NCBI GenBank assembly: GCA_016869175.1
Contig: VGEV01000004.1
Span: forward strand, 1 to 58,975
Direction of reading: 5' to 3'
Source of the DNA: Alphaproteobacteria bacterium
GTDB lineage: Bacteria; Pseudomonadota; Alphaproteobacteria; GCA-2731375
Length of the DNA stretch: 58,975 nucleotides
The notes beneath the pieces are model-generated. The model saw nothing but the letters and a program-made list of their open reading frames with translations. It searched no databases and was not told where the DNA came from. Shown one piece after another: positions 17,223-22,658 of the stretch. The position numbers and the translations under genes are program-made. The stretch's first letter is position 1, and every line of letters begins with the position of its first letter.

Positions 17223-17948
17223 TCAAGCGGCGTCGTGAAAGATCAGGCCAAGCGCGTAGCGTTGGCCGCAAACCAATGGGCTGACGCCGTGGCGCACGCT
17301 CGCCCGCAACAGTCCGCGCCGCCCCGCCACCGGTCGTTCGTTGACCGCGAAAACGATGCCCTCGCCCCGGCGCAGGGCGATGGCCTGGCCGATCGCCTGT
17401 TGCCGTGGCCGGTTCTCCACCAGCAGGAACTCGCCGCCCGTGAACTCACGTCCGGGCTCGCTCAACAGCACGGTGGCCTGCAGCGGAAAGGCCAACGGAC
17501 CGTACAGATCGCGGTGCAGCCGGTTATAGCCGCCGGCCTGGTAACGCAGCAGCAGCGGGGTCGGCTTGGCCTGGCCATGCCGTGCGCAGACCCGGCGATA
17601 GGCGGCAAGCGCGTCCGGGTAGCGCTCGGGGCGGCCGAGCGCCTGGCACATTCGGTTGGCGATGGGTGCCAGCCGCGCATAGAGCAGGACACGGGCCAGT
17701 GCGACCAACGCCGGCAACGGCTCGGCGAAATACTTGTAGGTCCCTTCGCCGAAACCGTGCCGGGCCATGTCGACCGTGCTGCGGAACAGCCGCGCTTCGG
17801 CAAACTGCCGGCAGAGGCCCCGGCATTCCGTGGCCGTCAGCAGGCCGGGCAGCCGGCAATGGCCCTGGCGATCGAGCGCCGCCTCGGCGGCGGTCCAATC
17901 GAGCGCGGCCAGACGGTCGGCGAGGGCGGGTTCGGGTGTCGGGGCCAT
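17223..17948 (-). CDS. 2OG-Fe(II) oxygenase (prolyl-hydroxylase-like)
   Basis: A 241-residue Fe(II)/2-oxoglutarate dioxygenase of a family widespread in bacteria. Iron-ligand candidates are the HxD in YNRLHRDLYGPLAFPLQ and the distal histidine in RASVRHGVSPL, with the 2OG-binding arginine in CGQRYALGLIFHDA. Other family hallmarks are TPLLLRYQAGGYN and FTGGEFLLVENRPRQQ. The N-terminal part (about 1-90) has the conserved helical TYKYFAEPLPALV segment. The substrate is unknown; protein or small-molecule hydroxylation are both possible. Confidence 0.88.
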   Translation of the reverse strand: MAPTPEPALADRLAALDWTAAEAALDRQGHCRLPGLLTATECRGLCRQFAEARLFRSTVDMARHGFGEGTYKYFAEPLPALVALARVLLYARLAPIANRMCQALGRPERYPDALAAYRRVCARHGQAKPTPLLLRYQAGGYNRLHRDLYGPLAFPLQATVLLSEPGREFTGGEFLLVENRPRQQAIGQAIALRRGEGIVFAVNERPVAGRRGLLRASVRHGVSPLVCGQRYALGLIFHDAA

Positions 17949-17999: not shown

Positions 18000-19487
18000 C
18001 TATGGCTGCCGCAAGCCGAAGAACAGCCGGATGCGGCGCAGCACCTGCGCCTGGTTCGCCAAGGTCAGGTCCGGCAAATCCGGCAGGCGCACGCCAAAGG
18101 CCGCGCGTTGGGCAGCGCGCTGCGCGACGATCTCGCCCAGCTTCTGTGCCAGTTCCTGGCGCCGCTCCAGGATCGGGCTGAAGGTTTCCTTGGTGATTTC
18201 CAGCAATTCGCTGGCCGTGCTGGTGGTGACGGTGGCGCTGCGCGGCTCGCCGGTCAGCAGCGACAGCTCGCCGAAGATCTCACCCGGCCGCAACTGGCCG
18301 AAGCGGCGGCTGCTGCCGTTCTCGGTCGCTTCGCTGACATGCAGCAGGCCCTCCAGCACAACGAATAGCGAGGCGCCCGGCTCGCCCTGGCGCACCACCG
18401 CTTCGCCGGCGGCGAACGAGCGCACGCCGGCGGTGCCGGCCAGCGCGGCCAGCTCGGCCGCGTCCAGCGGCTGGAACAGCGGAACGCGGCCGATCAGCGT
18501 GTCGAGATGGCGGCGCCGGTCGATGTCGCGGGCCGGCATCGGCGCATGGAACAGATCGAGCCGCGGCCCGGTGACGGCGATGCCGGCCTGGTGCAGCTGC
18601 TGCAGGATGTTGCGCCGCACTTCGTCATGCAGGCGCCAGCGGCTCTCGTAGTCGGGCACCCAGAAGCGCAACTGATAGACGATGCCGCGCGGGCTGAAGT
18701 CGATCACCCGCACTTCCGGCTGGCGCGGCAGCGCGTTGACCTCGGGCACCGCCACGGCCGCCGCCAGCAGGATGCGCTCGGCCTGCGCCGGCGGTACGCC
18801 GTTGTCCAGGCTGACGTCGATCCGGTCGCGCCAGTAGGGTTCGGGCGTGCTGTAGTTGCGCAGCACAGTGCTGGCGGCAAGCGCGTTGGGCAGCACAATG
18901 CCGATCCGGTCGATGGTCAACAGCCGGGTGGTGCGCCAGGTCACTTCCACCACTCGACCGGCGGTGTTGGGATCCAGTTCGATCCAGTCGCCCAGCCGGT
19001 AAGGCCGGTCGAGGCTGAGCGTGAGGCCGGCGAAGATGTCGGCCAACGTGTTGCGCAACGCGAAGCCGACGACCGCGACCAGGATCGAAGAGGCGGCCAG
19101 CAGGCCGGTGAGCACACCCTCGAACAGGCTCAAGACGATGGCGGAGAGCGCGAACGCCCAGACGCCCGCCGCCATCAATTCGCGCAGCAATCGTGGCGTC
19201 GATTGCCCGGTGCGGGCCGGCATCAGCCGGAGGAAGACGAGGCCGTCGACCAGGCGCACGGTAAGCCAGGCGGCCGCCGCCCAGAACAGCACATTCGCCG
19301 CCGGCTCGCCCAGCCGGTCGAGCGCCGAGCCCGGCGGCAGGGCCATCCGGGCGCGCCATTCCGGCCAGAGCAGGGTCAGCGCCAAGCCGGCGCCGGCCAA
19401 CAGGGCCGGCAGGGCGATGGCGAGGCGGCGCGGCGCGATGCGCGGGTCGCCGTTCATGCTGGCGTCAGGATGACCCAAGCCAGGCAT
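18000..19487 (-). CDS. MscS-family mechanosensitive channel with C-terminal cyclic-nucleotide-binding domain
   Basis: A 495-residue inner-membrane channel of the bCNG/MscS type. There are several hydrophobic segments in the first ~150 residues, then the MscS pore/beta segment VAVVGFALRNTLADIFAGLT and LDRPYRLGDWIELDPNTAGR. A cytoplasmic alpha-beta region follows, then a cNMP-binding domain from about residue 350. The phosphate-binding cassette LRPGEIFGELSLLTGEPRSA retains the glycine-glutamate and arginine needed to bind cyclic nucleotide. Starts at ATG 19487 or ATG 19457 (MNGDPRIAPRRL) are equally possible; neither has a clear Shine-Dalgarno. Gating by cAMP or cGMP is inferred from the domain. 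Confidence 0.9.
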   Translation of the reverse strand: MPGLGHPDASMNGDPRIAPRRLAIALPALLAGAGLALTLLWPEWRARMALPPGSALDRLGEPAANVLFWAAAAWLTVRLVDGLVFLRLMPARTGQSTPRLLRELMAAGVWAFALSAIVLSLFEGVLTGLLAASSILVAVVGFALRNTLADIFAGLTLSLDRPYRLGDWIELDPNTAGRVVEVTWRTTRLLTIDRIGIVLPNALAASTVLRNYSTPEPYWRDRIDVSLDNGVPPAQAERILLAAAVAVPEVNALPRQPEVRVIDFSPRGIVYQLRFWVPDYESRWRLHDEVRRNILQQLHQAGIAVTGPRLDLFHAPMPARDIDRRRHLDTLIGRVPLFQPLDAAELAALAGTAGVRSFAAGEAVVRQGEPGASLFVVLEGLLHVSEATENGSSRRFGQLRPGEIFGELSLLTGEPRSATVTTSTASELLEITKETFSPILERRQELAQKLGEIVAQRAAQRAAFGVRLPDLPDLTLANQAQVLRRIRLFFGLRQP

Positions 19488-19511
19488 ATCGGCCGGGCAC
19501 CGATTTGCCCG

Positions 19512-20641
19512 TCATTGCGCCGGGTAATCTGGGTCGAGCAAGTCGTCAATGGCGAACGGGCACGCCTCGGGCAGGCTCTCGACGGCGAGGCCGGTCTCCT
19601 TTGCCGCCCAGCGTCGGGCGCTGGCGTAGGTCGTCCCTAGCGCTTCGGCGAGACGGGCATCAAGCTCGGGCTCTCGGCCAGCAGTTCGGCGATTTCGCCG
19701 CGTGCGTCGTCGATGGAGCCGCGCCAGCTTCGCGAGTGACGCTTGGGCTGGAACTGCCATTTCAGCAAATGCAGCAGCAAACGGCCAAGTTGGTGCTTCA
19801 GCGCACGCTGATCGGAGCGTCCCAAACTCTCGAGCTCCATGGCAAGACGCGTGGCATCCAGTTTCGCGAGTTCGCCTTCGCGCAACAATTCGCTCTGCGA
19901 GGCGAGCCAGCCGACCCAGTCCTCGGCATGCTCGCGCGAAACGTCGATCCAGGCGTGCGAATTGCCGAACAGATCAACGTGTACGATGTCGCCGAAACTC
20001 ATGTGCACTTGGCGAAAACAACCGATGTCGGAGCCAAGCGTTGCACGCTTCAGGCGTTGCAAGCCATCGAGCACGATGGATCGGTCCGCCATCGCGCCGC
20101 CCTCGCTGATCACGTGGAGAAGCAGATCGCACGCGGGCACCCCGGCATAGCGGCCCTGACTTGCCTTGGCGGCCTTCCGGCGGATGGCCTGCTCGACATC
20201 GTGGACGACGTACTGCTCAGCGATGTCGCCTTCATAACCGTCGTTCTGTCCGCCTTCGCCGGGGAAGAAAACAGCACCAGACCTCTTGTCGGCCTTGCTC
20301 AGCCACTGCTGCCAGGAGGCACTGCCTGCTTCCGTGACTTCCACGCCGAGACGCTCGTTCCCTCGCCAAGAAAACGTGAAGTCCGGCAGCCGATTGTCGC
20401 GACCGAAGGCTGCCTCGTGCGCTTGGACGCTGACCGGCAACTCGAGCCGCTTGAGCGCGACCAGCGCAACGAGCAGGCGGCGCAAGGAATAGTCCTCGCG
20501 CTGCGCGGCGGTTCGCCGCTTTGGACCGGTCCGCGGCCCAACGGAACGGCCGAAAAAGGCCAAATCGTCGGCAAGACTGTCGCGGCCCTGCAGCCGCAAT
20601 TCCACCCGCACGCCCGCACGCAGCTCGCCACGTAACGTCAT
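19512..20641 (-). pseudogene. Nuclease-like domain fused to DUF29, frameshifted near the C-terminus
   Basis: The frame from ATG 20641 runs 334 residues to a TAG, and the remainder of its C-terminal domain continues in another frame to 19512. Residues about 240-328 are DUF29: DWVGWLASQSELLREGELAK, AMELESLGRSDQRALKHQLG, LLLHLLKWQFQPKRHSRSWR. The DUF29 tail then reads LDARLAEALGTTYASARRWA and SLPEACPFAIDDLLDPDYPA in the second frame. Adding one G at TTGATG (about 19651) joins the frames. Residues about 75-180 have LPDFTF, GVEVTEAG and a basic helix IRRKAAKASQGRYAG before DLLLHVI, resembling a PD-(D/E)xK nuclease core. The shift may be real decay, a sequencing error or programmed. Confidence 0.75.
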
Positions 20642-20736: not shown

Positions 20737-21540
20737 ATGGACGCCACGTTGTTCGCCGAGGCCGTGCTATTGGGCGTGGTCGAGGGGCTGACCGAGTTCA
20801 TCCCGGTCTCGTCCACCGGGCATCTCATCCTGCTGGTCGATCTCCTGGGCTTCCGGGGGGCGCCCGGCAAGGTGTTCGAAGTGGTCATTCAGCTGGGCGC
20901 GATCCTGGCGATCTGCCTGTTGTATATCGCCCGCTTGTGGGGCGTGGCGGCCGGGCTGGCGCGCGATCCGGCCGCCCGCCGCTTCGTCGCCAACATCCTG
21001 GCGGCCTTTCTGCCGGCGGCCGCGCTGGGCGCGCTGGCGCATGGCTACATCAAATCCGTGCTGTTCTCGCCCTACGTCGTCTGCACCGCACTGATCACCG
21101 GAGGCGTGCTCATTCTGATCCTGGAGCGCTTCCGGCCGAAGCCGCGCCATGGGCAGGTCGAGGCGATCCCGCTCGCCACCGCCCTGCGCATCGGCCTGTT
21201 GCAGTGCCTGGCGCTGGTGCCCGGCGTGTCGCGCTCGGGCGCCACCATCATGGGCGCGGTCTGGCTTGGCGTCGAGCGCCGCGCGGCGGCGGAGTTTTCG
21301 TTCTTCCTGGCGATTCCCACCATGCTGGGCGCGGCGGTGTTCGATCTTTACAAGAGCCGTGCGTTGCTGGCGGCGGACGGCCTGCTGCTGATCGCGGTCG
21401 GCTTCGCTGCCGCGTTCGTGTCGGCCCTGGTCGTGGTCCGCTGGCTGGTCGGCTATGTCTCCCGCCGAGGCTTCGCGCCATTCGGTTGGTATCGCATCGC
21501 GCTGGGTCTCGCCATGCTGGCGATCCTGGGCCTGCGCTAA
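20737..21540 (+). CDS. uppP: Undecaprenyl-diphosphate phosphatase UppP (BacA)
   Basis: This inner-membrane phosphatase recycles undecaprenyl pyrophosphate to the monophosphate carrier used for peptidoglycan, LPS O-antigen and other envelope polymers. The 267-residue protein has about eight hydrophobic helices. It carries both BacA signatures: GLTEFIPVSSTGHLILLVDL with the catalytic glutamate region near residue 17, and the arginine motif VPGVSRSGATIMGAVWLGVE. The start at ATG 20737 gives MDATLFAEAVLLGVVEGLTE. It is convergent with the NDUFA9-like gene, 4 bases between stops. Confidence 0.97.
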   Translation: MDATLFAEAVLLGVVEGLTEFIPVSSTGHLILLVDLLGFRGAPGKVFEVVIQLGAILAICLLYIARLWGVAAGLARDPAARRFVANILAAFLPAAALGALAHGYIKSVLFSPYVVCTALITGGVLILILERFRPKPRHGQVEAIPLATALRIGLLQCLALVPGVSRSGATIMGAVWLGVERRAAAEFSFFLAIPTMLGAAVFDLYKSRALLAADGLLLIAVGFAAAFVSALVVVRWLVGYVSRRGFAPFGWYRIALGLAMLAILGLR

Positions 21541-21544
21541 ACCG

Positions 21545-22495
21545 TCAGTTGGCGTGCGGCGCCGGCAACTGGCCGTGCCGGCGAAAACGGAAGAGATAGC
21601 TGGGCACGATGACTTCGAGCGGCGTCGGCGCGATGCCGAGGTCGGCCAGGCCCGGTCGACCGGGGCTGACGACATTGTCCTGCCGGAGCAGCTCGACCTG
21701 ATCGGGGGTCAGCGGCGGCACCGGCAGCAGTTGCAGGAAGGCCGCCTGGAACTTGGCGAGGCCGAAGGGCAGCGGCAGCAGCAGGCGGTTGCGGCCGGTT
21801 TCCTTCAGCACGTATTGCAGCAACTCCTTGAAGCTATAGCTGCGCGGACCGCCCAGCTCGTAGATTTGCCCGGCCGTCTCGGGCCGTCGCAGGATGACGT
21901 GAATGGCTTCCGCCACGTCGCCAACATAGACCGGCTGGAAGCGTGTTGTCCCGCCGCCAAGCAGCGGCAAGGCCGGCAACAGCCGCGCCAGGGCGGCGAA
22001 GCGGTTGAAGAAATCGTCCTCCGGTCCGAACACGAGGCTCGGCCGCACGATGCTGGCATCGGCAAACGCCTCGGTCACCGCCAGCTCGCCGAGCGCCTTG
22101 CTGCGGGCATATTCCGCGCTGCTGGCGAGGTCCGCGCCGATCGCCGAGACATGCACCAGGCGGCGAACGCCCGCTGCCTTGGCGGCGGCGGCCACCCGGC
22201 GGGCGCCTTGCGCGTGCACCGCCGCGAAGCGCTGGCCGCCGCGTTGATAGAGAATGCCGACCAGGTTGACCACCGCGTCCGCGCCGGCCACCGCCTGCCG
22301 CACCGAGGCCTCGTGCCGCAGATTGGCCGCCATCGGCATCACTTGGCCGACATCGCCCATGGGCTTGAGGAAGGCGGCAGCTTCCGGATCGCGCACCGCG
22401 ACCCGAACCCGCGCCCCGGCCTGTGCCAGGCGCCGGACAAGGTGTCGGCCAAGGAAGCCCGAGCCGCCGAACACCGTGACGTTGTCGATCCGCAT
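21545..22495 (-). CDS. Complex I NDUFA9-subunit-like SDR protein
   Basis: A 316-residue atypical SDR resembling the complex I accessory subunit NDUFA9. It starts at ATG 22495 with the NAD(P)-binding motif VTVFGGSGFLGRHLVRRLAQ, followed by VNLVGILYQRGGQRFAAVHA, HVSAIGADLASSAEYARSKA and RPSLVFGPEDDFFNRFAALA. The conserved C-terminal end includes TPDQVELLRQDNVV. In alphaproteobacteria this protein can bind complex I or act as an orphan NAD(P)H-binding protein; which applies here is unknown. The neighbouring uppP is a recurrent partner. Confidence 0.88.
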   Translation of the reverse strand: MRIDNVTVFGGSGFLGRHLVRRLAQAGARVRVAVRDPEAAAFLKPMGDVGQVMPMAANLRHEASVRQAVAGADAVVNLVGILYQRGGQRFAAVHAQGARRVAAAAKAAGVRRLVHVSAIGADLASSAEYARSKALGELAVTEAFADASIVRPSLVFGPEDDFFNRFAALARLLPALPLLGGGTTRFQPVYVGDVAEAIHVILRRPETAGQIYELGGPRSYSFKELLQYVLKETGRNRLLLPLPFGLAKFQAAFLQLLPVPPLTPDQVELLRQDNVVSPGRPGLADLGIAPTPLEVIVPSYLFRFRRHGQLPAPHAN

Positions 22496-22658
22496 GCGAT
22501 CCCCCAATCGGGCGTCGTGCGCATTGATAGTGGGGCCGGCCGTCCGGGGCAACGCCGCGCGCCGAGGCCTCCCGCGAGGGCGCTTGCATGCGCCAGGGCG
22601 CTTGGCTAAAACCCGCCCTTCGGCCGGGCTGCGTGTGCTCGGCCCAGCTTCGCCCCTT

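Follow-up and report, generated by a model that had tools for sequence, protein, structure and literature searches.

The window, a 58,975-nt stretch of DNA from an alphaproteobacterial assembly, contains on its minus strand an open reading frame of 334 aa (19637-20641), in which an N-terminal domain of approximately 235 residues (the N-domain) is followed by DUF29 (PF01724). DUF29 occupies residues 240-329 of this frame, corresponding to positions 4-93 of the 138 positions of the Pfam profile, and positions 84-137 are carried by another frame that ends at 19512. Both pieces exceed the Pfam cut-off of 22.5 bits (95.9 and 40.5 bits, respectively), and no other piece of DUF29 was found in a search of the whole window genome. 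Combined, the two frames make up one complete DUF29, for which chance offers no explanation. The features of the locus are as follows:

17226-17948, minus strand: PF09859 protein (annotated as an oxygenase that carries out the oxidative methylation of damaged DNA), with the MscS-type gene lying just upstream
18000-19487, minus strand: MscS-type channel carrying a cyclic-nucleotide-binding domain at its C-terminus; its gene begins approximately 25 bases past the DUF29 tail
19512-19682, minus strand: C-terminal third of DUF29, read in the other frame (profile positions 84-137; PF01724, E 3.9e-10)
19650-19670, minus strand: approximate frame break inside DUF29, where the two DUF29 matches overlap; three relatives have a single frame
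19640-19930, minus strand: N-terminal two thirds of DUF29, sharing the frame of the N-domain (profile positions 4-93; PF01724, E 3.2e-27)
19931-20641, minus strand: N-domain, residues 1-237, with candidate active-site residues E49, P86-D87, E101, E104, and K156

The original prediction, made from the letters of the window, described DUF29 as preceded by a domain with the motifs LPDFTF and GVEVTEA, and both are indeed present ahead of DUF29 (residues 85-90 and 99-105, respectively). It also placed a basic helix directly after GVEVTEA; this helix instead comes approximately 35 residues later (residues 139-164 of a low-confidence model).

The frame break in DUF29

The two frames join just after the residues ESPSL, at about 19650-19670. 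A one-base break within DUF29 near 19651 had been predicted, and it is borne out by the two-frame match in the window and by three relatives (L074, L075, and L076), in which a complete DUF29 lies within a single frame; the break in the window assembly is thus established. Decay of a non-essential gene is its simplest reading. A sequencing or assembly error, with the gene intact in the living organism, has an appreciable chance of being the cause, though one clearly short of even: the break is single, with no second disruption, and the DUF29 tail retains a good profile score (E 3.9e-10), but homopolymers of at least four bases are absent from the region 19501-20000.

Regulation by frame, which the original prediction had offered beside decay, is unlikely. 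A programmed ribosomal frameshift yielding two products would agree with the overlap of the two frames and with a heptamer of slippery form upstream at 19826. This sole heptamer, however, lies approximately 160 nt too early, DUF29 homology continuing in the main frame beyond it, and neither a slippery heptamer at the junction nor a second frame in the relatives was found, so that such a frameshift appears highly improbable. Since the break itself has no slippery heptamer, frame regulation is a less likely cause than decay (or an assembly error).

Occurrence and genomic context of the fusion

Searches with the N-domain in plasmids, phages, and the first genome-collection scans gave no match. 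A relaxed search covering 385 genomes of the class revealed two true relatives (in G689 and G608), in both of which a single open frame spans the N-domain and DUF29. When the species-genome collection was scanned with a profile, the same two were recovered, as L074 in a Rhodospirillaceae MAG and L075 in an Alphaproteobacteria MAG, together with a third, L076, in a MAG labelled Gammaproteobacteria. All three fusions are intact, single-frame proteins of 361-371 aa that are 37-43% identical to the window frame, and all are matched by the Pfam DUF29 profile; every one of these homologues possesses the N-domain that the original prediction described. Together with the window, the fusion is present in four genomes. 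DUF29 itself was detected in 21 of the 398 genomes of a phylum search, and among those DUF29 loci that were read on the coding strand, a part of the matches, no further N-domain fusion was observed. Viral contigs scanned with the fusion sequences gave no match either. The N-domain-DUF29 architecture is therefore real, and it appears to be rare.

Three further candidates were rejected. The matches at L007 (G391) and L079 are due to chance, lying inside or opposite unrelated genes, and the open reading frame upstream of a Cupriavidus basilensis DUF29 with an upstream-running match (H11) encodes an unrelated short protein.

The third-position GC content (GC3) of the window gene is 0.76, compared with 0.85-0.90 in its neighbours, as the original prediction had noted. 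The three intact fusions show the same tendency (0.67 vs. 0.82-0.88, 0.77 vs. 0.86-0.88, and 0.64 vs. 0.81-0.88), and in all four cases the fusion is roughly 0.10-0.25 below its neighbours. The low GC3, being common to all four fusions, has long characterised the family and is no sign of recent transfer; the recent horizontal transfer that had been drawn from it is accordingly not supported, the more so as the locus matches a conserved neighbourhood.

That neighbourhood is the order epimerase, uppP, gltD, gltB, which is found in the genomes of L074 and L075 as well as in G001 and G004, which belong to the same family as the window genome. In L074 and L075, the fusion occupies the gltD-gltB junction exactly, in the same orientation as both genes, starting a few bases past the gltD stop codon and meeting or overlapping the gltB start at its end, whereas in G001 and G004 this junction is empty, with a gap of only 13-20 nt. 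In the window, the epimerase and uppP genes are followed by the fusion and then by the MscS-type channel gene. The best gltB and gltD matches of the window genome are located on another contig (G000:C3, L112) and share no more than 38-43% identity with the type that accompanies uppP in the relatives. Around the fusion, an entire block appears to have been exchanged in this genome. The window uppP, beside the epimerase gene (20737-21540 and 21545-22552), is of a different type, being 30-37% identical to the uppP occupying the same place in genomes of the same family. The L076 fusion is located elsewhere, between an SDR gene and aceE.

The four fusion loci, few as they are, have no partner gene in common (uppP and the MscS-type gene in the window, gltD and gltB in L074 and L075, SDR and aceE in L076), and no flanking transposon-type repeats stood out around the fusion. 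That three families share a similar neighbourhood makes a recent arrival in the window genome less likely, and the overall pattern fits a gene moving over longer times. One conceivable form of such movement is a free-standing selfish gene, similar to homing endonucleases, that would settle in conserved operon junctions such as that of gltD and gltB, with DUF29 serving in targeting or control; overlap with the next start codon would hinder its loss, and sporadic spread would be followed by decay. This idea arises from the gltD-gltB junction, exactly occupied in two families and empty in G001 and G004, and the sporadic occurrence of the fusion and its broken window copy keep it under consideration. 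It is weakened by the different site of L076 and by the lack of any known cleavage activity or target, and we consider it quite improbable.

The N-terminal domain and its stand-alone relatives

The N-domain gave no match to Pfam, NCBIfam, PHROGs, or PADLOC families or to PDB sequences. A profile built from the four fusions, however, detected a stand-alone protein of 236 aa (L082 in G587), and further stand-alone relatives were found on plasmids of Shewanella, Massilia, Pseudomonas, Cupriavidus, and Dyella, the Cupriavidus copy being broken over several frames. The stand-alone profile additionally matched one locus on a viral contig (L088). The fusion and stand-alone profiles align over 179 columns (hhalign probability 97.2%, E 3.7e-11), from which the N-domain of the fusion is homologous to these plasmid proteins. 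Representatives such as WP_014620922.1 of Shewanella baltica and WP_259213762.1 of Massilia share the same conserved residues but have no DUF29; unlike the window fusion, the stand-alone proteins occur alone, in accessory plasmid regions and on the viral contig. Some of them adjoin Abi and SieB genes and others integrases. The original prediction considered that the gene might be a nuclease-type defence or toxin component, and it may be one. The PADLOC-DB 2.0.0 models of defence proteins matched neither the window frame, nor the intact fusions, nor the stand-alone relatives. Two genes after the N-domain relative, the viral contig encodes a long protein (L088, 3526-6252) that looks, by eye, like a SIR2-type defence protein.

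Eight sequences that are 18-40% identical to one another have the following residues in common without exception: M1, E49, L57, P69, P86, D87, E101, E104, A105, K156, and L173. The viral-contig protein retains the P-D pair, E101, E104, and K156, and the Dyella relative retains P-D, E101, and K156, with Q at position 104. The original prediction of a PD-(D/E)xK-like domain stands in part. A P-D pair followed by an acidic residue in the next strand is present (P86-D87 and E101), and E49, D87, E101, and K156 are kept across the fusions and the stand-alone relatives. The canonical (D/E)xK lysine, expected two residues after E101, is missing, its place being taken by T, S, I, V, or other residues in every aligned sequence; the conserved helix lysine K156 could stand in for it. 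A low-confidence model predicts the order helix (E49), strand, P-D, strand (E101), helix (K156), strand, and this arrangement of structural elements and residues fits the active site of the PD-(D/E)xK superfamily. With these phosphodiesterases the N-domain thus shares the predicted element order, an invariant P-D, a glutamate in the following strand, and a lysine in the next helix, and it differs from them by the missing (D/E)xK lysine and by having no sequence match to a known member. AlphaFold models of the N-domain obtained with one or five sequences reached a pLDDT of 47-48, too poor to judge the fold, and the Foldseek and VIA-align results for them were at noise level. A nuclease-like character of the N-domain is supported, short of proof, and is the likeliest reading.

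Its main rival is that the domain derives from a nuclease but is catalytically dead and retained for binding, the fusion being a DNA- or RNA-binding regulator or an antitoxin-like protein. The replacement of the (D/E)xK lysine in all sequences would agree with this, as would a plasmid cluster in which DUF29 accompanies a RelE/ParE-type toxin gene, and the position of L074 and L075 inside a metabolic operon with overlapping ends would suit a benign protein. The invariance of D87, E101, and K156 at such low identity is, however, likelier for an active site than for a binding surface, and we hold a dead domain to be rather unlikely, though with a real chance of being correct. It is also unlikely that the N-domain is unrelated to PD-(D/E)xK and that its conserved residues are those of a different alpha/beta fold with another activity. 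Known nucleases gave no match by profile or by fold, as this would lead one to expect, but the conserved residues are placed and ordered among the predicted strands and helices in a way that fits PD-(D/E)xK, and models of low confidence cannot demonstrate a different fold.

DUF29 and the possible role of the fusion

For the solved DUF29 structure (3fcn), the description goes no further than an alpha-helical protein whose function is unknown, and no paper naming DUF29 was found in the literature collection that was searched; the string "duf29" in a paper on HEPN proteins belongs to DUF294. The C-terminal part of the window gene corresponds to this domain, complete across its two frames. The other DUF29 loci that were read encode stand-alone proteins, from which the window gene differs by the additional N-domain of approximately 235 residues and by the frame break. 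On the Acidiphilium cryptum plasmid pACRY06 (L093, 101-2111), genes for a RelE/ParE toxin, DUF2283, DUF29, DUF4160, and DUF2442 form a tight row, which hints that DUF29 may act in toxin-antitoxin systems. DUF29 genes were also observed as tandem arrays with two or three copies, on plasmids too (G220:C111, G445:C23, and G344:C75; L095, 3567-4420).

The reading we prefer, to which we give an even chance, is that of a two-domain protein encoded by one gene, in which an N-terminal domain with a PD-(D/E)xK-like set of acidic residues and lysine precedes a helical DUF29. The N-domain would be an accessory, metal-dependent nuclease, probably of the genome-conflict type, and DUF29 may regulate or position it. 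The window copy, in which a one-base change of frame has apparently removed the end of DUF29, would then be an impaired or decaying allele. Plasmids commonly carry DUF29, to which no function has been assigned, and its natural fusion to a candidate catalytic domain provides a testable idea of what it may do. The fusion also links an unnamed plasmid-borne family to DUF29, and its intact relatives would offer clean material for assays.
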